32,929 nt of DNA from Ignavibacteria bacterium (GCA_030835005.1 JAUQWT010000112.1:1-32929); one strand, 5' to 3'; numbered from the stretch's first letter, positions 18,757 through 32,929 are shown. Numbers and translations are program-made. Notes: a model not told the origin generated them from the letters alone.

Positions 18757-20118
18757 TCAGCGCAGCTTTAGTTTCTCTTGCCAGTCTTCATCGCGTACTT
18801 CATTCTGTGCTGTAGAGTGAATAAGCTGATAATCTCCATATCCAGCACTCATATCAATAAATACGAATATTGCACCGCCCTGAAGCTTATTGTAAGTCCA
18901 AATCTCATATGCTCTGGTTGATCCTTCATATGGAAATCTTTCGATTTCATCATATTTCCCGAAAATTGCATAAACTCTTCCTCTATCTGACTTCCATCCT
19001 TCACGGAAATCACTTCTGAAATTCTTTTTTGCATATTCGATCCTTGAAAAATATTCTTTCTTGGTTAAGATCGAGCTTATTAGTTTCCAGTATTTGAACA
19101 TGAACATTCTTTTTTCGTCAACACTCTTTAACTGTTCATATTGGTCTTTCTGAACATCAGTCATAATATAGATCGCTCTGTCGAATTCACTATCAACATC
19201 TTTTTCTGTCATCTTCGGGTATTCGCTTAATAAGTATTCATTTTCCAGGTCAGTCAGGTTAACATTACTTACGTTAGAATCACTGCTGTAAATATAGAAA
19301 TATTTATAAGCTCTTATTCTTTCCTCCTTCTTTTCGTCAAAAAGCTTCACAAGCAGTAAGTAACGGTTAGAAGGCAGCCCGCCAATATCAATCGAGCCAA
19401 ATTCCACTTTCGAATCAGCCTGTACAGGATACTCTTTATCTGCAGATTTAATATCTGATCCATCCTGGTTAGCAATAGAAACTGCTACTGAATACTTGCT
19501 GCCAAGATCTGAAGTATTTATATTATATATTTCGAGATAATAATATAATTTACTCAGGTTATTGCCGAATAATGAAGACGGATTGGGAGTTACTTCCAGT
19601 GTGTTCTTATAAAATATATTGTCAGCATCATTTGATTTAACAATATTCGTGCCAAGCTGTATAGTACTGAGGTTTAACTGATTGGTTGAAAAATCTTTCA
19701 GTACAATATCTTCTTCAAAATCAGCAAACTTAGAAGAATCTCCAAAATCCGATGCTCTTATCTTGACAGAATAGGTACCTGAATCGAGTAGCACATTTAT
19801 CTGGCCGGTCAGTTTGAAACCTTTGCTGCTCTGAGTTGTATCTTTAAGTACGAAAGGAACCTTAAAATCTTTAGCAACAACAGTTTTTTGCAGATTTTTG
19901 TTAAAAATTGTCATTGAAATCTTGCCATTTGCTTCATATCCTTCATTCGATTTAACAAAGATCAGGTTATCAGGATGAAAAGAGTAATAAAACTCAACAA
20001 AGTTTTTGCTTGATTCATCTTTAAAAATTGAATAATCAAAATCGAAGTTAAAATCATCGCCTGATAAAGCAATTGATTGAAACAACACGAGGACTAATAA
20101 TATTCGGATAATTTTCAT
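18757..20118 (-). CDS. GWxTD domain-containing protein, exported
   Basis: Signal-peptide-like N-terminus; C-terminal EGWKSDRGRVYAIFGKYDEIERFPYEGSTRAYEIWTYNKLQGGAIFVFID matches the GWxTD domain with T to S variation. Confidence 0.85.
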   Translation of the reverse strand: MKIIRILLVLVLFQSIALSGDDFNFDFDYSIFKDESSKNFVEFYYSFHPDNLIFVKSNEGYEANGKISMTIFNKNLQKTVVAKDFKVPFVLKDTTQSSKGFKLTGQINVLLDSGTYSVKIRASDFGDSSKFADFEEDIVLKDFSTNQLNLSTIQLGTNIVKSNDADNIFYKNTLEVTPNPSSLFGNNLSKLYYYLEIYNINTSDLGSKYSVAVSIANQDGSDIKSADKEYPVQADSKVEFGSIDIGGLPSNRYLLLVKLFDEKKEERIRAYKYFYIYSSDSNVSNVNLTDLENEYLLSEYPKMTEKDVDSEFDRAIYIMTDVQKDQYEQLKSVDEKRMFMFKYWKLISSILTKKEYFSRIEYAKKNFRSDFREGWKSDRGRVYAIFGKYDEIERFPYEGSTRAYEIWTYNKLQGGAIFVFIDMSAGYGDYQLIHSTAQNEVRDEDWQEKLKLR

Positions 20119-20149
20119 AAGATAAAAATATTAAAAGTGGGTTAAAAAG

Positions 20150-20181
20150 AAAATGCCATTTACAGTTGTAAATGGCATTTT
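20150..20181 (-). terminator. Strong hairpin, probably a terminator of the PorV-like gene
   Basis: Perfect 14-bp stem AAAATGCCATTTAC-agtt-GTAAATGGCATTTT, A-rich on the left and T-rich on the right; could act on both strands. Confidence 0.75.
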
Positions 20182-20210
20182 CAAATAAAGTTTTCAACTA
20201 GCTATGCATT

Positions 20211-21272
20211 TTAGAATCCGATAGTCAAAGAGAACCACTGGTTTGCATTAAACCGTTGGGTAACTCTGTAAGCATAATCAAGCCCTAATTTTAAATTCCC
20301 AAAAGGATACTGAAGCCCTACACCAAAAGAAGGTCCGAACAGATTCTGATCTTTCTTGACCAGTCCGTCTTCAGCCTTATAATCAGGTGTAAAAGCATAT
20401 GCACCTCTTAAGAAGACATAGTTGTTATAGTTGTATTCCAGTCCAACTCTGTATTCATCGCTTGAAAAGTTATTGTTCTGGAAAGTAGTTGATAACTGGA
20501 CGTTATTCTTTTTGCCAATTGGAAGATCGTAAGATATACCGATTTCCAGTGTTGTCGGCAAAGAGAAGTCCTGTAAAGTTATCCTTCTTGGTTCAGTAGC
20601 AGTTCCAACGCTTCCGGCAGGAGAATAATTCTGCTCCAGCGCAATACCATCAAACCTCATAGATGGACCGAAGTTCTTCAAAGCAACGCCGAATTTGAGT
20701 CCGGATTTACCTGCAAGGTACTGCAAACCGAAATCAAATGCATAACCGGTAGCAGAAACAGTGGAGATCTGTTCATAAATGATCTTTACAGTTGTCCCGA
20801 AAAGAATCTTATCAGACATCTTTCTTGAGTAAGAAAGCGAAGTAGTCAAATAAGTTGGAGACCATGTTTCTCCCGTACCATCAGGACTCTCCAAAGTGGT
20901 AACCAGCTCATCACCAAAACTAAGTGTCTTCAAGCTGGCACCAATAACTCCCAGGTTGCCCAGATTAACGGCACCTGCAACATAGTTTACATCAATATCA
21001 GCAATATATTTCATATGTGATGCAAGTACTTCAGTCTGATTGGTCATCATTGATAACCCCGCAGGATTCCAGTACATTGCATCTACTCCGGTAATAGATG
21101 ATATCATTGAACCACTGAGTGAAGTTCCTTTAGAGCCTACAGGTATCAGTAATTCCGGAGCTGCAGATGTACCATATTTACTGCGGTCACCTGCGAAGCC
21201 TATGCTGCCTGCAATCAATAAAGCTATCATTGCAATTTTAGCAGTTTGAATTATTTTATAATATGATTTCAT
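20211..21272 (-). CDS. PorV/PorQ-family outer-membrane protein
   Basis: Start revised from 21314 to ATG at 21272 (MKSYYKIIQTAKIAMIALLIAGSIGFAG) because an AAAGGAG SD lies upstream. SSITGVDAMYWNPAGLSMM and a terminal beta-barrel strand match PorV/PorQ-like proteins. Confidence 0.82.
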   Translation of the reverse strand: MKSYYKIIQTAKIAMIALLIAGSIGFAGDRSKYGTSAAPELLIPVGSKGTSLSGSMISSITGVDAMYWNPAGLSMMTNQTEVLASHMKYIADIDVNYVAGAVNLGNLGVIGASLKTLSFGDELVTTLESPDGTGETWSPTYLTTSLSYSRKMSDKILFGTTVKIIYEQISTVSATGYAFDFGLQYLAGKSGLKFGVALKNFGPSMRFDGIALEQNYSPAGSVGTATEPRRITLQDFSLPTTLEIGISYDLPIGKKNNVQLSTTFQNNNFSSDEYRVGLEYNYNNYVFLRGAYAFTPDYKAEDGLVKKDQNLFGPSFGVGLQYPFGNLKLGLDYAYRVTQRFNANQWFSLTIGF

Positions 21273-21303
21273 TTTGTGCTCCTTTAGTTTTTCAAAAAAG
21301 TGT

Positions 21304-24300
21304 TTAGAACGCATCTAGTCTTTCCTCCGGAGTAAATATCGCAAGCTTAATTGTTTTTGTACCAATACCGGGTGCATCAATGAAAGCAATATATATACCA
21401 CTTGCAATCGGTATTCTATCTGTATTCAGAAGGTCCCAATTAATTGATGTGTTATTATCATTCTTTTGGATCATTCTGATTAGATTACCATTTAACGAAT
21501 AAAGATAAATGGTAGCCTGTTTTGGCATATTCATGAATTTAACAAACCTGTCAAACGAGCTTGTTTCCTGAGCATGACCGCCATAATACGGATTTGGCAC
21601 AACCCTCACTTTTTCTAATTCGCCTCTTTCATTTGCTAAAGCAACACTTCCTAAAGTTGGAGCTACTGTTGAAACTTCCGTAACTGTTACTGTACCGGGG
21701 CTCTGTTGATATTTGAGCTGTGTATACGGAATAACAGTCATCACATCGCCATTCTGGTATGCAGGGTTTCCGCCGTTTAACAACCTTGGCCACCATACAT
21801 ACAATACGTCCATCTGCCCAAACTGCGTTGCAAAGTTTATATTCTTTGTAGTATAGAATGTGCTCTGGACATCTGAATAGTTGGAGTACATAATGTATAT
21901 CATTTCCAACCCGCCATCAGGCTGTGCTTTGGGGTTCCAGGTTCCGCTGGAGTCTCCATCAAAGAATGCCACATTAACCTGTCTTGGCGTAGTGGTGTTA
22001 GTATCCAAAGGATCGTCGATTTCCACTTTAAACGGAACGTCAACATAATCACGGAACGGAGAGTTATTAACTGCACCCATATACCTGTATGCTTTCTGTG
22101 TCTGTCCAAAGGTTATCTTAACCCTTTTTAATGAATAAGTTTTAATGAATGTTGTATCTATTCTGCTTTTAAAGTTATTCTTGAAATTACGAATAGTCGG
22201 CCATGAAAGCCCCATCGATACACTCTGCATTGGTTTGTAATTACCAGTAGGATAATTCACAAAAGAGAGAGTATCAACACCGGCAAAGTTTATGTTACTG
22301 TTGCTGTAAGTCCAGCCTTTGCCGGAAGTTTGAGCACCAACTCCAGGGTCTCTTATGACACCCATATTGTACCTGTTTATAGTATCGGCTTTGAATAATA
22401 TTCCATCAATTACGTATGCATTATTATCAAGAATAGATTTGTTTCTGGATCCCCAGACCAAAGTATCAACCTGAGTATTGTTAATGATCCTAACAATGTT
22501 AAAAGTAGTATCAGGATTGAATACCTGCTGATACCTTGCAGAAATTACTCTCTTCGGATCCAAAACAATTGGTACAAAGCCTCTATCAATCCTGTTGGTT
22601 ACTAAAGTATCACCGAAGTTATTAATGAAGTTAGAACCTAATGTAGGGTAATTCGGAATAACTTCAAAAACCTGAGATCCAATGGGATTCTTGAGTACTT
22701 TGTATGGCGGTAAAGCATGCCTGTTCACACCGTATGCAACAACTGCAAATTTATAGGTAGTACCATTAATAAAAAAGTTGTTTACGCCAGGTGGGAATGC
22801 ATTTTGTGTTAAACTAATATGCCTAGAAATTCCTGAATTTGTGCCTAATGCAGTTGGCTTATATTCCCACACATTTGAGCCATTTGGCTGGAGTGTTTCA
22901 ACAGAATCCATAACAGTTGTTATGCTGTCAACTAAATCATATATGGCAAGCAATCTTCTGTCTTCAGGATTATCTCCGCCTGTTCCCGGTTTGATCTGAT
23001 AAATCTCGTAACCCTGGAACTTCCATGAACCTGTCAAATCGATCTTATCAAATTCATCGTATGCTTCAGAAATACTCGACCAATATAATGTAACCGCACC
23101 ATTTCCATCCGCAACTGCATTAACCTGTGGTGGCGGAGGAAGAGGTATTGAACGGAAATTCAGGTCATAAATTCTCTGAACTCTATCAGCATTATTCAAT
23201 AACACGCAAACACTCTGGAAGTTATCACTGCCGATACCAACAAAGCATCCTATAACTACTGTTTGTGTATCATTGGAATGCATTGTGAATGGTCCGCTGT
23301 TCTGCAGGAATCTTCCGTCATGTGATGCACTATCAAACCAGCCGGTTCTTGTACATGCGTTTCCGGGATACATAAAAAGTGTTGGCTGTCCTGAAGTTGG
23401 ATTAATTCTTGGTCTTCCGCAGCCATCCAAGCCTTTCATTAGATTATAACCGGCACTGTATTCATCCGGGTCATTATTACACGGATCTGGTGCCGAGTTG
23501 ATGAAATAATTGAAGCCTGTTAGCCCTAACTTAATATATCCAACCAATGTATCATATGGAAGGAAGGCAGAATCTGAAGGATTGCCTGTTTGTAATATCG
23601 GACTCTGCAAATACCTGTAACCAATGGCTGGCGGCGGAGTTCCGTAATTACAATCGTTGTTATCTGCATTATATACAAAAGCTACGTTCTTATTAGTATC
23701 ACAACCCACTGCATCGTCACCGGCTCCGCAGGAACCGTTTCCAACATCTGCGTCATCAAACACTGAAATGTAAGTACTATCCCACTGATCATTGCTTCTG
23801 TTAATAACATGCCACTTAACAAAATACATATCTGTTAAGCCGGGAGAGTTAAACTGAAACGCCAATTGCTGAACTTCAACACCCATAGGAGGTGTCCCTC
23901 CGGGTAATGAGATCTGGGCTTGGTGTGTATTGTTTGTACAATTTGTATAATCCTGATATATCATGAACGATATTTCATCAGGCCTTGCCTCACTGTTGCC
24001 GATTCCTGGCCTGTCTCCATCAAAAGACGGCTGATAACCGGGGATTCCGTTAACTTCAACATAGGGCGCACCAAGATCTACAGGCCATGTGGACCACGCA
24101 TCATAAGTAAATGTGTAGTTTCTTCCGCCTGCCAATTTGGTTTTAGTTCCACCTTCGGATAATGTCGGGTCAGTCAGCTGAACGTAATAAATCCTGAAAC
24201 GCGGATCATTGCATACTGATTGAGGTGTAACTTGTCCCAACACGGGAATATTGCCCGGAGTGAAATGCGATGCATAGGCAGCAACAGCTGTTTTAATCGC

Positions 24301-24603
24301 ACCATTGATCTTAGCGCCGACCCATATTCCGGAAGTATAATTTATTGTTTTTCTGTTTGGTGAACTAACCGGCCATATCATACCTGCATCAGAAGTCGGG
24401 AAAGTGATAAAGTCATAGTTAAATATTCCGTCAGATCTGAATGTAGTATTAATATTATTTCCCTGCATAAATAACTGTTGAATACTTGCATCGGTAGTTA
24501 TCACAGGGAGATTCTTAGGCTTGTCTGCAAACGAATTACTTCCAATGAGCAGAAATGCTAATATCAGAAGAAGTATTTTATTATTTTTAACGTATTTATT
24601 CAT
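21304..24603 (-). CDS. Large exported protein (1099 aa) with a VVPNPYY...SGIYIAFIDAPGIGTKTIKLAIF C-terminal domain
   Basis: Signal peptide (ILLLILAFLLIGSNSFA) and a C-terminal FlgD-Ig/T9SS-like domain with a non-standard tail (TPEERLDAF). Confidence 0.8.
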   Translation of the reverse strand: MNKYVKNNKILLLILAFLLIGSNSFADKPKNLPVITTDASIQQLFMQGNNINTTFRSDGIFNYDFITFPTSDAGMIWPVSSPNRKTINYTSGIWVGAKINGAIKTAVAAYASHFTPGNIPVLGQVTPQSVCNDPRFRIYYVQLTDPTLSEGGTKTKLAGGRNYTFTYDAWSTWPVDLGAPYVEVNGIPGYQPSFDGDRPGIGNSEARPDEISFMIYQDYTNCTNNTHQAQISLPGGTPPMGVEVQQLAFQFNSPGLTDMYFVKWHVINRSNDQWDSTYISVFDDADVGNGSCGAGDDAVGCDTNKNVAFVYNADNNDCNYGTPPPAIGYRYLQSPILQTGNPSDSAFLPYDTLVGYIKLGLTGFNYFINSAPDPCNNDPDEYSAGYNLMKGLDGCGRPRINPTSGQPTLFMYPGNACTRTGWFDSASHDGRFLQNSGPFTMHSNDTQTVVIGCFVGIGSDNFQSVCVLLNNADRVQRIYDLNFRSIPLPPPPQVNAVADGNGAVTLYWSSISEAYDEFDKIDLTGSWKFQGYEIYQIKPGTGGDNPEDRRLLAIYDLVDSITTVMDSVETLQPNGSNVWEYKPTALGTNSGISRHISLTQNAFPPGVNNFFINGTTYKFAVVAYGVNRHALPPYKVLKNPIGSQVFEVIPNYPTLGSNFINNFGDTLVTNRIDRGFVPIVLDPKRVISARYQQVFNPDTTFNIVRIINNTQVDTLVWGSRNKSILDNNAYVIDGILFKADTINRYNMGVIRDPGVGAQTSGKGWTYSNSNINFAGVDTLSFVNYPTGNYKPMQSVSMGLSWPTIRNFKNNFKSRIDTTFIKTYSLKRVKITFGQTQKAYRYMGAVNNSPFRDYVDVPFKVEIDDPLDTNTTTPRQVNVAFFDGDSSGTWNPKAQPDGGLEMIYIMYSNYSDVQSTFYTTKNINFATQFGQMDVLYVWWPRLLNGGNPAYQNGDVMTVIPYTQLKYQQSPGTVTVTEVSTVAPTLGSVALANERGELEKVRVVPNPYYGGHAQETSSFDRFVKFMNMPKQATIYLYSLNGNLIRMIQKNDNNTSINWDLLNTDRIPIASGIYIAFIDAPGIGTKTIKLAIFTPEERLDAF

Positions 24604-24624
24604 AGTCTAATTATTTTCCAGATT

Positions 24625-27594
24625 TTAGTTAAAAAATAATCTAAGTCCGAGCCTTATTTGTCTTGGCGGGCCATAGTTGTTAATAGCATGTGATCTGATA
24701 TTATAAAGCCTTACTGCTTCGGGGCCGTTTTGCTGCGCCCATTGCTTTCCGGGAAAACTATCAAGCCATCCGGTATAACCGGCTTCACCTGAACCATCAA
24801 AAACAGCATTTATCAATTCCTGATCAAGTACATTTAATGCCAGGAGATAAATGTTAGCATTAAGTTTATCGAATATCTTTACTGACTTATCAATCTTCAG
24901 ATCGAGTTTATAATTCCATGGGTAATATGCTGAATTGATCGGAGCAATTGGCTGGTTGCCCTGAAGACCGGAAACAACACCCAGTGGATCTGTAGAATTA
25001 TTCTGTGGAGTATATGGCCTGCCTGAATTAAAGCTGAATAGTACGTTTATTCCGAGTCTGGAAAGTACTCCGCCCCAGAATCCTTTGGGTACATCGTCTG
25101 TTCCCCATCTGTAATCAAGCTCAACAGCGCCGGTATGCCTCTGATCAAAATCAAGCGCATTCGGAAGTTTCGGCGGCTCATCGCCGTTGTATGCAACATT
25201 GCTTAAAGTGTTAATATCCGAACCGGTTCCAGATGCGAAGGCTAGTCCATAAGAAATAGAAGCCCTTAACCTGTTGATCCTTCTGAGATCAAGGCTAAAA
25301 TCTAATCCTCTTATGATACCAAAATCACCGTTGTCATATATCGCAAAACCATAAGAAAGATCATATGCTTTAATATTTTTTGCCTGTATGAGATCTGATG
25401 TTTCTTTATAGTAAGCAGTCAAGCCTAAGGTCAGGTAATCACCTGCACTGTGCTTAATACCCAACTCATAAGCAGTCGTCTTTTCGGGTTTAAGCAACGG
25501 ATTATTAAATATAGTAAAATATCCTACACCGCCGTCAGCAAGATCCCTTAAGACTCTCTGATTTGTGTAAAGATTCTCTAAAGCCGGCAACTGGACAAAT
25601 TTTCCATATTGTGCATGGAAAACAGTCTTATCAGTTATCGGGAATGAGAACCCAAGACGCGGACTTACTATAATAGTCTTATCTACCTTTACGAAATCTG
25701 AGCCATTAAACTGGCCATCTGGTCCCTTTAAATCCTGGTAATCAATAGGAACTGTAGTATTTGGATCAAGATAATCAACCCTTATACCCAAATTTGTGTT
25801 AAAATAACTGAACTCCATCTTATCAAGGAAGTAGAAAGCTCCAACCCTTGGTTTCAATGGACCTTCTGTAACATTAAGTCCTGCATTGTCCAAATAATCA
25901 ACATCCGATTCATTGCCAAATGGATCATACCCAAACGCATTCAGAAAAGCTGCATTACCGTCATCATCCGAAATAACCGGAGTATTTACAACAAAACCGG
26001 ATGAATCACTGTACTTGTTGTAATTAATAGTAGAATATGAAAGAGGATTCACATCGTACATCCTGATCTTATATTGCTTGTACTCACCGCCAAATTTCAA
26101 CTCATGATTACCAAATTTCTTTGTTAATACCTGGTGAGTGAAATTCAGGTTAAAGGCTAGCTGGTCTGTTTTTCTTTTTCCAAACAAATTATTAGCAAAT
26201 ACTGTAATTCCTGCAAGATCATACGGATTTCTGAAAACTCCAAAGTTCACGTTATTCGAGATCGAACTTCCGTTTGAACCTAAACCGGGAATCACGTTTG
26301 TATCACCAACTGCCAAATACCATGGATACGTCCATTGACCATTGCGATCCTTGTAAGTTTCATCCATACTGAATAAGCCAGGAGAGCCAACTGATGTTGA
26401 CCTCAGGTATGATGCCTGAAGATCATAAAAAGTCTTTGAACCGAACAATTGATTTATTTTGAAAAATCCCTGTTGATTCTCATCTTTGATCTTCGGATTC
26501 ATGAATGAATTATAAAGCCCAAATGAACCTACCCACTGCCTTGATTTTTCAATATTACCGCTGTATCCGGCTGTAAGGTTGATCTGTACTTTACCTTTAG
26601 TCATTTCATCGATGCTAATTATAGTCTTGCCTGTCCATGAGTGTCCGTCTCTTGAAAAATTAGGCAAAATTCCGTCCGGTGACCACAACAAAGCAACGTC
26701 TGTACTTACAGGCTGATCAACCAGGAAATATTGTCTTTCATAATTACCGAAGATACTCCAGTATTTAGCAAGTTTCTTTGTCGGGATAACCGGTCCGCCT
26801 AAACTGACACTATATATATTGTAACCTTGTGACCTTTTGCCAGCAATAAAATCTGATACAAGGTCAACAGATCCTGAAAATTTAGTTGAAGCCGATTTTG
26901 TAGTTACATTAATAACACCGCTAAGTACATTTCCATATTCAGCGCTGAAACCGCCTGTTAAAACTGCGAGTTCCTGCAATGCACCATTAGACACATTTGC
27001 AGTAGATGTCCTGTCAAGCGGATTATTTGTAACTATACCGTCAATTATGATCTGGGTCTCACCATCTCTTCCGCCGCGGATATTGATGTTCTGTCCCTTT
27101 TCATCCTGGACAATACCGCTTGTCTTTGCAACAATATTTTCGATTCCTCTGATACCGCCTTCATCAATTGTAGTTGAGCTGATAATCTTTCCGCTTCCAT
27201 TATCAATCGTCTTGCGCTTTGCAATAATAACAGTAGTATCAAGAACAACGCCGCCTTGGGACATTGTAAAATTCACTTCAGTATTAATATCAGCGCTCAC
27301 TTTTACATCTTTTTGGATCTGAGATTCGTATCCAACATACGAACATTTTACGGAATAAGTACCAACGGGAACGTTCAATATTGCATATTGACCGCTCTCA
27401 TCAGTACCTGAGCGGAATTGAGTACCCTCAATCTCGACCCTGGCGCCAATAAGCAATTCGCCTTTGTCATCTCTGACAACACCGGTAACCTTACCTGTGG
27501 TGCCATAGAATTCAAAGCCGGAGCTCAATGTATCCGTAACTTTAAACGCAAGAATTAGAAGAAGGGCTAAAAAGAAATGGTTAAATAGCCTCAT
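24625..27594 (-). CDS. TonB-dependent receptor with N-terminal carboxypeptidase-regulatory-like domain
   Basis: GKVTGVVRDDKGELLIGARVEIEGTQFRSGTDESGQYAILNVPVGTYSVKCSYVGYESQ, plug domain (NINIRGGRDGETQIIIDGI, GFSAEYGNVLSGVINVTTKS), terminal RQIRLGLRLFFN. SD GGAGGT upstream. Confidence 0.93.
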   Translation of the reverse strand: MRLFNHFFLALLLILAFKVTDTLSSGFEFYGTTGKVTGVVRDDKGELLIGARVEIEGTQFRSGTDESGQYAILNVPVGTYSVKCSYVGYESQIQKDVKVSADINTEVNFTMSQGGVVLDTTVIIAKRKTIDNGSGKIISSTTIDEGGIRGIENIVAKTSGIVQDEKGQNINIRGGRDGETQIIIDGIVTNNPLDRTSTANVSNGALQELAVLTGGFSAEYGNVLSGVINVTTKSASTKFSGSVDLVSDFIAGKRSQGYNIYSVSLGGPVIPTKKLAKYWSIFGNYERQYFLVDQPVSTDVALLWSPDGILPNFSRDGHSWTGKTIISIDEMTKGKVQINLTAGYSGNIEKSRQWVGSFGLYNSFMNPKIKDENQQGFFKINQLFGSKTFYDLQASYLRSTSVGSPGLFSMDETYKDRNGQWTYPWYLAVGDTNVIPGLGSNGSSISNNVNFGVFRNPYDLAGITVFANNLFGKRKTDQLAFNLNFTHQVLTKKFGNHELKFGGEYKQYKIRMYDVNPLSYSTINYNKYSDSSGFVVNTPVISDDDGNAAFLNAFGYDPFGNESDVDYLDNAGLNVTEGPLKPRVGAFYFLDKMEFSYFNTNLGIRVDYLDPNTTVPIDYQDLKGPDGQFNGSDFVKVDKTIIVSPRLGFSFPITDKTVFHAQYGKFVQLPALENLYTNQRVLRDLADGGVGYFTIFNNPLLKPEKTTAYELGIKHSAGDYLTLGLTAYYKETSDLIQAKNIKAYDLSYGFAIYDNGDFGIIRGLDFSLDLRRINRLRASISYGLAFASGTGSDINTLSNVAYNGDEPPKLPNALDFDQRHTGAVELDYRWGTDDVPKGFWGGVLSRLGINVLFSFNSGRPYTPQNNSTDPLGVVSGLQGNQPIAPINSAYYPWNYKLDLKIDKSVKIFDKLNANIYLLALNVLDQELINAVFDGSGEAGYTGWLDSFPGKQWAQQNGPEAVRLYNIRSHAINNYGPPRQIRLGLRLFFN

Positions 27595-27625: not shown

Positions 27626-27654
27626 AGCCCCGGCTAATTAGATTAACCAGGGCT
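27626..27654 (-). terminator. Hairpin between T9SS cargo gene and TonB-receptor gene (terminator or attenuator)
   Basis: Minus strand AGCCCTGGTTAA-tctaa-TTAGCCGGGGCT with two G-T pairs, then TTTCTTTG. Confidence 0.6.
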
Positions 27655-27670
27655 GACTTCTTAATTAAGA

Positions 27671-29443
27671 TTATTTTACAAGTATCATTTTTTTAGTTTC
27701 AGTAAATTCTCCGGCTTTTAAAGTATAGAAGTAAATTCCGCTTGCAAGGTTTGAAGCTGAAAATTCTACTTCTTTTACGCCGGCAGTTACTGCCTGATTA
27801 TTTGCCAATGTTGCAACAAGTTTTCCGGTCACATCATAAACCAGCAAAGATACATTGCTTGCTTTTGGAACTGAGAACCTGATCTTTGTATTTGGGTTAA
27901 ACGGATTCGGGTAATTCTGTTTTAATGAAAATCCGTTTGGAACCTCATTGGAAATATTGCTTATACCAATTATGCCTCCGGTTTCAGGATTGTACTTTCT
28001 GTAGATCTGCCATACCGGACAGGTTGGTGTAGTAGTGTTGGTAAAGCTTGTTGAACCAGGGCATTCTGATAACTGATAAGTTATCGAAATAGCTGTTGGT
28101 GTATTTCCGGTTACAGATACAGAAGGATAAATTTCATCAAGTGCAGCTGTATTCGTTAAATTACGCGGTGAGCTCCATGTTGCACCGTTATCATCTGAAT
28201 ACTGAACATAAATATCACTATAGTTATACGATCCGTCGCCGCTGTAACTTGTGCTGTTAACTGTATCAAGCTGAACGCCTGAATAAACAACAAAAAGCCT
28301 GGAACCGTCTGAAGAATATGCAAGGCTGGGATGTGACATAGCTGTCATTCCAACCTGAATGTTTCTCAGACTATTATTGAACACGTTCGTATCTGCCATA
28401 GGAAGATAGTTCGCATGATCAACAACTTTTACTGCAGTACCTCCGTTTATTGTCGGGTTATAGAACATCAATTTATAACCGCCTGCTGTTCCGAAGTTAC
28501 CTGTTAATAATGTACCAAAAGCCCAGCATAAATTACCGGTTGGGCTGTAGATCATATCAGCATTAAACCAAGGGGCTACAGGAGTACCGTTAACAATTGT
28601 ACCTTCTGAAAAAGCTGTTTGTTCAGAACCAAATGAAGAACCGCCGTCAGTTGATTCTTTATAGACCAATTTAGTAGGAGCTGTTGCAAACCAATAACCT
28701 ACTGCAACTTTTCCGCTGCCGTTAGAAGCACAATACTGCCTTGCATTAGCCGGAACGCCTGTAAACAATACAGAAACAGGACCATAAGTATTTGTACTAG
28801 TATTATACTTTGCAAAATAAATAGAATCTGCAGTACCGCCGCCAAGCCATGCGCATGCAACCTCTGTTGCACTTACAGGCCAGCCAAAATTGTCACTTCC
28901 GGCACCTGTTGGCACCAATGTGCTTGTAAAAGAACCTGCACCAAGCTGAACATCAACTCCGGTATAGCCTCTTCTTGCACCTGCGACAAACTGCCTTCCT
29001 GTCAAAACAGGAGTTCTTGAGCCGTTTACAATCATTGGATGCAGATCCGGATAAGCGTTTCCGTCAGGATTAACTAAAATTGCATCGCCGGTTCCCCAAA
29101 TTCCTCCGTTATTAAATGAATACTGATAAAACGATCTTCTGGCTGTTGATAACTGAGCGTTGACTGAATCCGTCTGATCTCCGGTAACGATAACAGTATC
29201 ACCGCTGATCCAGATCCTGTGAAGGTTATTACCATTAGTTACATAATCATAATAGCCTCCCATGCCCTGAACGCTTCCAAGTGTATCAACCAAGCCTGAT
29301 GGCTTATATGTTGAAGGAGCCTTTGACTCAATTACATTATTTCCTGTTTCCTTTGCATCGCTAAGCCTTTTAGGGCCGCCGACATTATAAGACATTGCTG
29401 CAATAAATGTTACAGCAACGACAAACAGAATCAATCTTTTCAT
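27671..29443 (-). CDS. T9SS type A sorting domain-containing protein with Asp-box-like repeats (paralog A, 590 aa)
   Basis: C-terminus NYPNPFNPNTKIRFSVPKASNVSLLVYDVTGKLVATL...GIYFYTLKAGEFTETKKMILVK; YSDDNGATWSSPRNLT and STDGGSSFGSE Asp-box-like motifs; signal peptide. Confidence 0.9.
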   Translation of the reverse strand: MKRLILFVVAVTFIAAMSYNVGGPKRLSDAKETGNNVIESKAPSTYKPSGLVDTLGSVQGMGGYYDYVTNGNNLHRIWISGDTVIVTGDQTDSVNAQLSTARRSFYQYSFNNGGIWGTGDAILVNPDGNAYPDLHPMIVNGSRTPVLTGRQFVAGARRGYTGVDVQLGAGSFTSTLVPTGAGSDNFGWPVSATEVACAWLGGGTADSIYFAKYNTSTNTYGPVSVLFTGVPANARQYCASNGSGKVAVGYWFATAPTKLVYKESTDGGSSFGSEQTAFSEGTIVNGTPVAPWFNADMIYSPTGNLCWAFGTLLTGNFGTAGGYKLMFYNPTINGGTAVKVVDHANYLPMADTNVFNNSLRNIQVGMTAMSHPSLAYSSDGSRLFVVYSGVQLDTVNSTSYSGDGSYNYSDIYVQYSDDNGATWSSPRNLTNTAALDEIYPSVSVTGNTPTAISITYQLSECPGSTSFTNTTTPTCPVWQIYRKYNPETGGIIGISNISNEVPNGFSLKQNYPNPFNPNTKIRFSVPKASNVSLLVYDVTGKLVATLANNQAVTAGVKEVEFSASNLASGIYFYTLKAGEFTETKKMILVK

Positions 29444-29497
29444 TTCACTGCCTTTCGTTAAGTTAATATTTGTTGTTTTTATGAATAATTCTAAATA

Positions 29498-29526
29498 AAT
29501 ATAATTGAAATATCTTATGAAGTCAA
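29498..29526 (-). promoter_or_regulatory. Candidate sigma70-like promoter for paralog A
   Basis: Minus strand TTGACT (29526-29521), 17-nt spacer, TATATT (29503-29498); 55 nt upstream of the start codon. Confidence 0.45.
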
Positions 29527-29606
29527 GTATATTTTAAGAAATTATTAAGTGCTTATTATACAAAGATTTTAATTTTCGAGTGCGTAAGTGTCTGACATTT
29601 TTTGAT

Positions 29607-29639
29607 AAAAAAAAGGGGCAAATTCAACATTTGCCCCTT
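29607..29639 (-). terminator. Rho-independent terminator after paralog B
   Basis: 11-bp stem AAGGGGCAAAT / ATTTGCCCCTT with 5-nt loop, followed by a T tract on the minus strand. Confidence 0.88.
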
Positions 29640-29649
29640 CTGTTTTTGC

Positions 29650-31422
29650 TTATTTTACAAGCATCATTTTCTTTGTTTCTTTGAAGTTATCGGCTTCTAA
29701 TGAATAGAAGTAAACACCGCTTGCATATTTCGACGCATCAAACTTAACTTCGTGTGTTCCTGCCTGAACCATTTCACCTTTCACTATTCTTTCAATTTCC
29801 CTGCCTGTAATATCAAATATCTTGATACTGACTGGCGATGCCTTTGAAAGCTGGAATCTGATTGTTGTTGAAGGATTAAACGGATTAGGATAGTTCTGTC
29901 CAAGTGAGAAACTCTCGGGAACTTCGATTGAAATTGTGTTAATTCCAATTGGAATATTATTTCCTGTAGCAGGATCTACCCTTGTATAAATAGGGTAGTT
30001 TCTTGAAACAGGTGCAGTTGTCTGAGTAAAGCTTGATGAACCCGGGTATGCTGACAAATAATATAATACGCCGAAGTTATTTGCAGTGTTTCCGGTTTTT
30101 GAAAGAACAGGATATATTTCATCACCATCTACAGTACAGCTGGCGATCTTTTTTGGTGTTGTCCACGAAGAACCATCATTTGTTGAATAACAAATGTAAA
30201 CATCATTAAAAAGTAATGTTATTGGCGCAGGATAAACAACACTGTCTTTCTGAACTGACGAGAACACGCATGCAAGTGTTGATCCGTCATCTGTATATGC
30301 AAGTGTCGGATGTGAAATGTAAGTCATACCTGTTTGTATTTCGGCAGTAGAGTTGAATACCCAGGCAGTATCGCCAAGAACAGGCATATTTGAATGATCA
30401 GCAACAACAACAGGATTTCCGCTATTTACACCGGGTGACCATGAAAGGATCTTATATCCCTTAACGCTTGATACCGGCTGCGTGCACCATGCTGCTACAA
30501 CTGTGGTTGAGTTTGGTTTGTAAATAAGATCCATACCGAACCAAGGAGCAGTACCGTCTCCATTTGCAACATAAGTTGTTGGCATAACGGTAGTCATTGC
30601 TCCAAAAGTATTGCCGCCATCTGTGGAAAGCTTGCCGGCAAGTTTTTCTGCATTTGCAGTTGATACATACCACATTGCGAAAACATTCTGCCCATTGGTA
30701 GAAGAAGCACATATTTTTCTGCCGTTTGCATCTATTTCGGCAGTTGGAGTTGCGATCTGAAGCCTAGCCCCATATGTATTTGTAGAATAATCATATTTCC
30801 TGAAGAACAAAGTATCACCTGACTGATAAACACCGCCAAGATTCGTTCCGCTTAACAGGCACGAGAAATAATCAGCACCGGGTGCCGGCACTAAATTTGT
30901 TGTTATTGAGCCTGCTCCAAGCTGTACATCAATACCTGCATATCCTCTGCTTCCTGGAGAGAACTGCCTTCCAGAAATTGTAATAGTTCTGGTTCCGTTC
31001 AGCATAACCGGCCAGATATCGGGATAAGCACCGCCAAGTGGACGTGGAGCTACTTCTATAGGAGAAGAAAGCCATGTTTGCCCGCCATCTGTGCTCACTT
31101 GATAAAGAGCTGTTCTGCTGTTTGAAACTTGTGCATTCACAGAATCAGTATACTGTACAGCAACAATAACGGTATCACCAAGCACAACAAGCATTCTCTG
31201 GTTTTGTCCGTTTGTCTGATAGTCCCACCATGTAACCATTCCGGGAACACTCATGCTCGTATCAATTGCAGCTGCTCTTGTGAATGCAACCGGATTAAGA
31301 TTCCTGTTGAGATTTAATGATGTTCCATTTTCCAGTGATTTGTCACGGATGCCCTGGTGGCCACCGGCAAATACCACAATATTAAATACGAGGAGCAACA
31401 AGATTAGAAGTGGTTTTTTCAA
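29650..31422 (-). CDS. T9SS type A sorting domain-containing protein with Asp-box-like repeats (paralog B, 590 aa; TTG start)
   Basis: C-terminus NYPNPFNPSTTIRFQLSKASPVSIKIFDITGREIERIV...GVYFYSLEADNFKETKKMMLVK; STDGGQTWLSS, STNDGSSWTTPKKI; clear similarity to paralog A (DTVIV...TDSVNAQ, GIDVQLGAGS). Confidence 0.9.
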   Translation of the reverse strand: MKKPLLILLLLVFNIVVFAGGHQGIRDKSLENGTSLNLNRNLNPVAFTRAAAIDTSMSVPGMVTWWDYQTNGQNQRMLVVLGDTVIVAVQYTDSVNAQVSNSRTALYQVSTDGGQTWLSSPIEVAPRPLGGAYPDIWPVMLNGTRTITISGRQFSPGSRGYAGIDVQLGAGSITTNLVPAPGADYFSCLLSGTNLGGVYQSGDTLFFRKYDYSTNTYGARLQIATPTAEIDANGRKICASSTNGQNVFAMWYVSTANAEKLAGKLSTDGGNTFGAMTTVMPTTYVANGDGTAPWFGMDLIYKPNSTTVVAAWCTQPVSSVKGYKILSWSPGVNSGNPVVVADHSNMPVLGDTAWVFNSTAEIQTGMTYISHPTLAYTDDGSTLACVFSSVQKDSVVYPAPITLLFNDVYICYSTNDGSSWTTPKKIASCTVDGDEIYPVLSKTGNTANNFGVLYYLSAYPGSSSFTQTTAPVSRNYPIYTRVDPATGNNIPIGINTISIEVPESFSLGQNYPNPFNPSTTIRFQLSKASPVSIKIFDITGREIERIVKGEMVQAGTHEVKFDASKYASGVYFYSLEADNFKETKKMMLVK

Positions 31423-31455
31423 TTTAATTCCTTTCGTTAATTTATAAATGAAATT

Positions 31456-32929
31456 TTATTTAATTAGAATCATTTTCTTTGTATCGGTAAAACTTCCCGA
31501 GTTAAGCGTGTAGAAATAAACACCACTCGGTAAACCGGAGGCATTAAATTCGATTTCCTTTGCGCCAGATGTCTGCACTTCATCAACAAGTGTTTTAACT
31601 TCGCGCCCAAGAACATCAAATACTTTAAGCGTTACAAGTCCGGATTTAATAATATTATATTCAATCTTGGTTGACGGATTGAACGGATTCGGATAATTCT
31701 GTGTCAGACGGTATTCTTTGAGTAAATTCTGATTGTTTATTATCCCAATTGGAGGTAATGCTGCCATTTTTCTATATATCAGTGTATTCCGTGAAGCCGG
31801 AGCTGAGCCGCCAAATGAAGAAGGACCAACACCCGGATCTTTCATGTAAGTAATATGCAGTTCATACGGATTGCCGGGGGTTCCGGGATTCCAGGCAGAA
31901 ACCGAAGGATATGATTCATCAATATTAGGTGTATTGGTAATTCTGATCGGATTAGACCAGGTTGAAGCATTATCAAGTGAATAACTGCAGAAGATATCTC
32001 TTTGATTATAACCGCGGGATGTATCAGGCATTGTTACGCTATAAACACAATACAATGTGCTGCCATCTGCACTCCATCCCATCGATGGAAAATCAATATT
32101 AAACACAAAAGACATGGTAGCTACATAACTTGTGGCTGCACCTAACTGTGCCACAGTAGCAACAACAGATGTATTACCGTCAGTTCTGGTTACAACAAGC
32201 CTGGCTTCGCTATAAAGATTATCATTAGTTATGGGGTAAGCCAAGAACCACATGTCAGAATTTTTCTTATATGTAAAACCTGAACCGCCTGCTGTTGAAA
32301 CAGTATCCTGATCCCCATTCACCGTATAAGGATTAAACACAGGGGTCACTGGACCCCAGTTCGTACCATTATCTGTAGAAGTTCTCTGGTATATTCTGCT
32401 GTTAAATAACGTATCATCCTGAGTAACCGGAGCCATTATTGCAGTAACTCTGCCATTACCGTTAGTTGCCATGTGGAATCTCATATTGCTTCCAATTGTA
32501 ACTCCGGGCTGAAAGACACCACTCGTAAAATAAATTGGTGTATTTGCACCTAAGCTGGTCCCGTTCCATGTTGAAACATAAAGAGTTTCAAGTCCATTGG
32601 CACTAACGTTTCTTCTTGAGAGGATTGAAATATTCCCATTGCTCAAAACTGCATATTGCGGCCATATGCCAAAAGGTGCCGGCGAAGGATGGCCGTATTC
32701 AGTGAAAGTTCCGGCAAGAACGTCAATATCAACATATAAATTAGTATTGAGTGCGCTCCCGACATTTGTGCTGTGATTTGCAATTACAGCAGCTCCGGTG
32801 CCAGTCAACTGCAGTACCCCAAATCCTGATCTAACGTCAGGAACATCAACGTTGAAATCCCATGACTGTCCGCCATTAGTTGTGAAGGAATATTTCGTCC
32901 TCCTTGAAGTTGCTCCGGCAAAATCCAAC
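31456..32929 (-). CDS. T9SS type A sorting domain-containing protein with Asp-box-like repeats (paralog C; 5' end beyond window)
   Basis: C-terminus NYPNPFNPSTKIEYNIIKSGLVTLKVFDVLGREVKTLV...GVYFYTLNSGSFTDTKKMILIK; TNGGQSWDFN, TSTDNGTNWGPVTP, SLDNASTWSNPIRITN. Open to the window end. Confidence 0.88.
   Translation of the reverse strand, partial: LDFAGATSRRTKYSFTTNGGQSWDFNVDVPDVRSGFGVLQLTGTGAAVIANHSTNVGSALNTNLYVDIDVLAGTFTEYGHPSPAPFGIWPQYAVLSNGNISILSRRNVSANGLETLYVSTWNGTSLGANTPIYFTSGVFQPGVTIGSNMRFHMATNGNGRVTAIMAPVTQDDTLFNSRIYQRTSTDNGTNWGPVTPVFNPYTVNGDQDTVSTAGGSGFTYKKNSDMWFLAYPITNDNLYSEARLVVTRTDGNTSVVATVAQLGAATSYVATMSFVFNIDFPSMGWSADGSTLYCVYSVTMPDTSRGYNQRDIFCSYSLDNASTWSNPIRITNTPNIDESYPSVSAWNPGTPGNPYELHITYMKDPGVGPSSFGGSAPASRNTLIYRKMAALPPIGIINNQNLLKEYRLTQNYPNPFNPSTKIEYNIIKSGLVTLKVFDVLGREVKTLVDEVQTSGAKEIEFNASGLPSGVYFYTLNSGSFTDTKKMILIK

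Follow-up and report, generated by a model that had tools for sequence, protein, structure and literature searches.

A recurrent operon of a TonB-dependent receptor, a protein with a PorZ-like sorting domain and a PorV-family barrel in Ignavibacteria and other phyla

We analysed a DNA stretch of 32,929 nucleotides from an Ignavibacteria bacterium (GCA_030835005.1, JAUQWT010000112.1:1-32929; this whole stretch is hereafter the window), which carries, head to tail on the minus strand, the genes for a TonB-dependent receptor (TBDR), for an exported protein of 1099 aa that we call E, and for an outer-membrane barrel of the PorV/PorQ family. Judged by comparative sequence analysis, this triplet is an ancient, widely repeated unit found in many little-studied phyla, and the window module belongs to a larger class, in which it is the member with deep conservation. 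On balance, we favour the reading that the three products form a single surface complex of the outer membrane, in which E, exported by the SprA translocon of the type IX secretion system (T9SS), would be held by its own barrel and act as the surface partner of the TBDR, in a SusCD-like arrangement.

Results

The triplet recurs in many phyla

Relatives of E were found in 188 of the 396 genomes of a phylum sample (E-value <= 1e-5, partial matches counted), and most loci show the order TBDR, E, barrel, both in the regions around 40 E relatives and in 80 named loci. Taking into account only complete E proteins that have the C-terminal tail described below and for which both flanks are visible, both neighbours are present in 80 of 85 loci by open reading frame (ORF) calls, and the same count applies to the TBDR upstream of E. 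A tblastn check of the five apparent exceptions identified two as ORF-calling misses in GC-rich loci and three as real (L047, L055 and L106), raising both counts to 82 of 85; TBDR genes are also found in many paralogous operons. The triplet loci include some from Ignavibacteria, Kryptonia, Marinimicrobia, Calditrichota and KSB1, and further from Zixibacteria, GN15, Latescibacteria, Handelsmanbacteria and Eisenbacteria, a conservation of gene order that by these counts far exceeds chance. The original prediction, made from the window sequence alone, had linked the TonB receptor to the other two genes and had proposed synteny of the three families across Ignavibacteria and related phyla as a check; both the link and the synteny are borne out. 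We found no description of the module in the literature, within a search of open-licence papers.

E-like proteins lacking the tail occur in triplets in two of 15 cases, both with altered ends. At four loci, tandem arrays of E-like proteins were observed, mostly without the C-terminal tail and with no adjoining barrel.

The barrel belongs to the PorV/PorQ family but is not PorV, PorQ or PorV2

The window barrel reaches 172.9 bits with the PorV/PorQ family model NF033709 (cut-off 90), but stays below the equivalog cut-offs for PorV (57 of 250 bits), PorQ (79 of 220) and PorV2 (89 of 325), and by these scores it is a family member distinct from all three. Its predicted structure (pLDDT, the predicted local distance difference test, 87.5) has as best PDB matches the PorV chains of the SprA translocon, 8gl6_F and 6h3i_F, and a profile search likewise retrieved 6h3i_F (E-value 1.7e-22). 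The window assembly contains nine PorV/PorQ-family genes, including a canonical PorV beside PorU (277 bits, cut-off 250), a PorQ (247, cut-off 220) and a PorV2-like protein (234, below the cut-off of 325). The separate canonical porV, whose presence the original prediction had asked about, is thus in the genome, and we excluded the window barrel being its only or general PorV.

In a quick tree, the E-linked barrels form one clade (100 in the Shimodaira-Hasegawa-like approximate likelihood ratio test, SH-aLRT) apart from PorV, PorQ and PorV2, and 86 of the 89 rows of this clade have E directly upstream. The position of the window barrel in this clade supports a dedicated cargo/carrier pair, and together with the recurring triplet it strengthens the earlier suggestion that the PorV-like protein and its large exported neighbour form a cargo/shuttle pair. 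A type B pair, with a carrier of the PorP/SprF kind, was considered and rejected on model scores: TIGR04131 (type B sorting domain) has no match in E, and the barrel obtains 14.1 of the 90.6 bits set by TIGR03519 (PorP/SprF).

E ends in a PorZ-like sorting domain with a conserved tail

In family alignments the last 103 residues, which form the C-terminal domain (CTD), are the best conserved part of E. All 40 aligned CTDs match both the PorZ CTD model and the type A model TIGR04183. For the window protein the PorZ model scores slightly better, with 25.6 bits (at positions 682-755 of the PorZ model, in its CTD) against 23.8 bits for TIGR04183; the latter, whose cut-off is 23, gives 18.3 bits with the whole protein. 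The likeness to PorZ is confined to the CTD, since its 25.6 bits compare with a cut-off of 260 for PorZ membership and no match is listed for full-length E, and the PorU protease has no match in E. In type A cargo the chain ends at the motif known as E, whereas protein E has nine further residues, TPEERLDAF in the window and roughly QEQQxLDxF in the family consensus, which lie past the usual end of a type A CTD and are kept throughout the family. By these matches the CTD is a sorting domain of the Ig-like kind, with that of PorZ as its closest counterpart, and E is type A-like rather than a plain type A cargo. PorZ itself retains an uncleaved type A-like CTD held by PorQ, a barrel of the PorV/PorQ family, and it has been proposed that cognate PorV-like barrels shield CTDs from cleavage (PMC10202324).

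E has no Pfam family. Its AlphaFold2 model is beta-rich and multidomain (mean pLDDT 78.4), with PorZ (5m11) as the top Foldseek match in the PDB, and a PDB sequence search returned the PorZ CTD as sole match (E-value 0.69). A second, shorter protein of the same genome, C423, is 63% identical to residues 41-483 of E and continues directly into a type A sorting domain, so the first ~440 residues, which are also found on separate proteins, would be a T9SS-type surface module; another protein, C438, is a partial second copy. We also discarded the idea that E is a SusD in disguise: apart from weak matches to sorting domains or flagellar Ig-like domains and a single match to PRC, Pfam recognised nothing in 42 E proteins, and the genome has no SusD.

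E could nonetheless be regarded as an ordinary type A cargo, an adhesin or enzyme whose fate after cleavage is release or anchoring to lipopolysaccharide, with the barrel as an unrelated FadL-like porin or redundant PorV. The isolated CTD lies just over the TIGR04183 cut-off, the N-terminal module of E occurs on a type A cargo, and PorV is the one general carrier of type A cargo (PMC12635249). We consider this improbable given the near-invariant pairing of E with one barrel clade, the PorZ-like CTD with a tail past the usual end, the within-genome co-variation of module partners described below, and the fact that the ordinary type A cargo genes of the window (27671-32928) have no barrel gene beside them.

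A larger class of receptor, cargo and barrel modules

The sampled genomes have 8-40 PorV-family genes each, and their neighbourhoods repeatedly show a TBDR, a cargo of 589-1604 aa and a PorV-family barrel, also where the cargo is unrelated to E. Module loci were chosen by PorV score and not by their neighbours, with the exception of the first ten (L225-L234), some of which were picked for a nearby sorting domain. Among 96 PorV-family genes listed from 13 genomes, 51 are preceded by a sorting domain that is encoded on the same strand and ends less than 350 nt away, against an expectation of 0.08, and none has one downstream. A TBDR and a sorting-domain cargo precede 38 of the 42 PorV-family genes with more than 5.5 kb of visible upstream sequence, and in a complete Latescibacterota chromosome 14 of 15 PorV-family genes are in such modules, which number up to 14 per genome. 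The PorU-PorV pair obeys the same order rule, with the sorting-domain gene directly before the barrel gene, and PorU directly precedes PorV in several genomes.

By their gene content, some sister modules have neighbours like those of polysaccharide utilization loci. At one locus (L248) a LacI-type regulator precedes the TBDR and a CBM20/DUF5018 protein follows the barrel, and at another (L255) a GH94 enzyme begins 22 nt after the barrel; IPT/TIG proteins stand beside two modules (L228 and L229) and an M14 peptidase beside a third (L251). A second conserved operon, consisting of a TBDR, a PorV-family barrel and an NHL-repeat protein, was observed in the window's own genome (C354) and in relatives (L225-L227); its TBDR and barrel genes are not separated by a sorting-domain cargo, and type A cargo genes lie in the vicinity.

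Distances between paralogous modules were compared with within-genome shuffles, giving correlations of 0.65 for CTD and barrel, 0.87 for cargo and barrel, 0.84 for TBDR and barrel, and 0.85 for cargo and TBDR. None of 5000 shuffles reached the observed values, therefore the modules diversify as units, which is all that this comparison shows. Neighbours in an operon need not interact, and distance co-variation is partly phylogeny, so the triplet might reflect mere shared regulation of unrelated outer-membrane proteins. We regard this as very unlikely, however, as the same order and tight spacing are kept over many phyla and are repeated with unrelated cargo, whereas partners with no functional link would be split by rearrangement.

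The receptor

The TBDR has a signal peptide and, by Pfam, a CarboxypepD_reg domain, a plug and a TBDR barrel, and scores 39.3 bits against a cut-off of 368 for SusC/RagA membership. We propose that it would be in physical contact with E, and that it may serve either in uptake or in assembly.

Secretion machinery in E-carrying genomes

The T9SS is often called specific to the Bacteroidota. SprA was detected in all 20 E-carrying genomes searched for it and in none of 14 controls, and PorU in all 20 (18 above cut-off); the window genome encodes SprA, PorU and PorV, the machinery for type A cargo. Among these 20 are genomes of Zixi-, Latesci-, Eisen- and Handelsmanbacteria, Marinimicrobia, KSB1 and Calditrichota. 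GldM was above cut-off in none of 35 E-carrying genomes (one, G022, has a weak partial match) against eight of ten E-lacking Bacteroidota, and GldN in none of 23 against five of five. Four genomes that lack E have 10-41 copies of SusD, against 0-3 in 21 that carry E, and no SusD (PF07980) was found in the window genome. These are absences at the sensitivity of the hidden Markov models (HMMs) and may reflect divergence. Thus, the T9SS of these phyla would lack the known motor and ring, GldM/GldN, or have a divergent one.

That the known energy chain, GldM/GldN, was not detected would fit another role for the receptor: E and the barrel would be a dedicated pair, but the TBDR, of which each operon has one, could bring in energy, driving the release of E or serving as a surface scaffold, rather than importing a nutrient together with E. 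To us this seems unlikely, since every module has its own TBDR instead of one shared energiser, sister modules adjoin sugar-use genes and TBDRs are established importers, and the HMM absence of GldM/GldN may itself be divergence.

Layout of the locus

The features of the locus are collected in Table 1. The intergenic gaps are 21 nt between TBDR and E and 31 nt between E and barrel, as originally reported. The earlier description of plausible Shine-Dalgarno sequences stands for the TBDR (GGAGG) and the barrel (AGGAG) and holds weakly for E (GGAAA). The barrel start was placed at the ATG that follows AGGAG, giving 353 aa, while the longest ORF begins at 21314. The downstream hairpin, described before as a perfect 14-bp structure, is indeed perfectly paired, but its arms are longer, 16 nt with 100% complementarity (-20.6 kcal/mol, z = -7.9), and it has a U-tract. 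Since terminator-like hairpins stand at both ends, the transcription unit is probably made up of exactly these three genes.

Table 1. Features of the TBDR, E and barrel locus, in window coordinates.
Feature	Position	Strand	Basis
TonB-dependent receptor (TBDR), 989 aa	24625..27594	-	Pfam PF13620/PF13715, PF07715, PF00593
E, 1099 aa, exported	21304..24603	-	signal peptide judged by eye (~residues 1-26); no Pfam family
E N-terminal module, residues 41-483	23155..24483	-	C423, 63% identity over 41-483
E PorZ-like Ig sorting domain (CTD), residues 997-1099	21307..21615	-	PorZ CTD and TIGR04183 matches
E nine-residue C-terminal tail TPEERLDAF	21307..21333	-	family alignments
Outer-membrane barrel of the PorV/PorQ family, 353 aa; proposed as E's own carrier or anchor	20211..21272	-	NF033709, 172.9 bits
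Terminator-like hairpin and U-tract, 3' of PorV-like gene	20149..20182	-	arms 20149-20164/20167-20182
Terminator-like hairpin separating the TBDR gene from the T9SS cargo gene upstream	27626..27654	-	hairpin fold
GWxTD-domain protein, downstream neighbour	18757..20118	-	TIGR04514

The type A cargo genes upstream are three in a row, with weak BNR/sialidase-like repeat matches, and look like mutual duplicates; two of them have the same length, 590 aa. Downstream of the triplet, many genomes of the Ignavibacteria type have a GWxTD-domain protein, some of them two copies of it, and it is a frequent rather than a constant neighbour.

Discussion

A model for the operon

We propose that Sec exports E, whose PorZ-like Ig domain at the C-terminus would then serve for passage across the outer membrane by way of the SprA translocon. 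E's own PorV/PorQ-family barrel, and not the general PorV, would take it over from SprA, and the sorting domain may stay docked on this barrel, as that of PorZ does on PorQ and as type B cargo does on PorP/SprF, so that E would remain at the surface beside the TBDR of its operon. There it could act as the surface partner of the receptor, in nutrient capture, as a lid or in processing, and do for it what SusD does for SusC. We consider this the best explanation because it accounts for the order of the triplet, the single barrel clade, the separate canonical PorV beside PorU, the presence of SprA and PorU, the PorZ-like CTD and the PorV-like barrel fold, as well as for the pairing of sorting domains with barrels, the co-variation, the contrast in SusD numbers, the sugar-gene neighbours and the type B precedent.

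Several observations weigh against the model. Across E triplets, the co-variation of CTD and barrel is not above that explained by TBDR distances (partial r 0.06), therefore any specificity at the residue level is putative. The body of E has no recognised ligand-binding fold, and the Foldseek matches to GH94 and GH116 enzymes are weak (template modelling score ~0.2) and were not used. No glycan genes adjoin the window module, which has the sialidase-like T9SS cargo upstream and GWxTD and YbbR proteins downstream. Finally, the absence of SusD could reflect lineage rather than replacement.

More tentatively, and with the odds somewhat against it, the modules may constitute a third general class among machines for TonB-dependent uptake, with a surface partner that SprA delivers and that its own barrel of the PorV family holds. 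Such machines would replace SusCD across the phyla of the Fibrobacterota-Chlorobiota-Bacteroidota (FCB) group outside the Bacteroidia, would work with a T9SS that lacks the known GldLMN motor, and would imply that PorV was originally a dedicated carrier among many others, not the sole general carrier.

In current reviews T9SS cargo falls into two types: A, with a single general carrier, PorV, and B, in which each cargo has a PorP/SprF carrier dedicated to it. If the model is true, this division would no longer hold, since carriers from the PorV family would be dedicated to type A-like domains; this would also explain why genomes of many phyla have so many PorV-family genes, and uncultured phyla would gain a counterpart of SusCD, one for which the libraries searched have no family name. 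The link to the TBDR would connect protein secretion with nutrient uptake, and the presence of SprA and PorU with no detectable GldM/GldN raises a testable question, namely which energy source drives secretion there.

Comparison with known systems

Dedicated carriers that stay bound to their cargo are established for type B and PorP/SprF (PMC12618676, PMC9143113, PMC12635249). As in those pairs of F. johnsoniae and P. gingivalis (PMC12618676, PMC9143113), the cargo gene is directly followed by that of its own carrier, a barrel of the 14-strand FadL type, and there are many pairs per genome; retention of the bound cargo is a type B feature that E would share. Here, however, the barrel is of the PorV/PorQ family, the sorting domain is a PorZ/type A-like Ig domain and not TIGR04131, and a TBDR is part of the operon.

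The pairing of a type A-like CTD with a PorV/PorQ-family barrel is shared with the attachment-complex pairs PorZ-PorQ and PorU-PorV, in which the CTD is uncleaved (PMC10202324), but E matches PorZ in the CTD only, has neither a match to the PorU protease nor any mark of a secretion component, and comes with a TBDR. With SusC/SusD, a TonB receptor joined by a surface lipoprotein, the module has in common that a CarboxypepD_reg TBDR is encoded in tandem with a large surface protein, present in many copies per genome and, in sister modules, next to sugar-use genes; it differs in that the partner is not SusD and has a T9SS sorting domain and its own barrel, and in that the TBDR is far below the SusC model. 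In the BamG-BamH pair of the Bacteroidota barrel assembly machinery (BAM), a FadL/PorV-type barrel uses its extracellular loops to grip a protein at the surface (PMC12578637), as the barrel here may hold E, but BamH is a lipoprotein with no sorting domain, in a complex built on BamA. Most likely, the module works as a cargo with its dedicated carrier, linked to a receptor of the SusCD-like kind; by membership tests the pair is neither type B/PorP nor SusCD.

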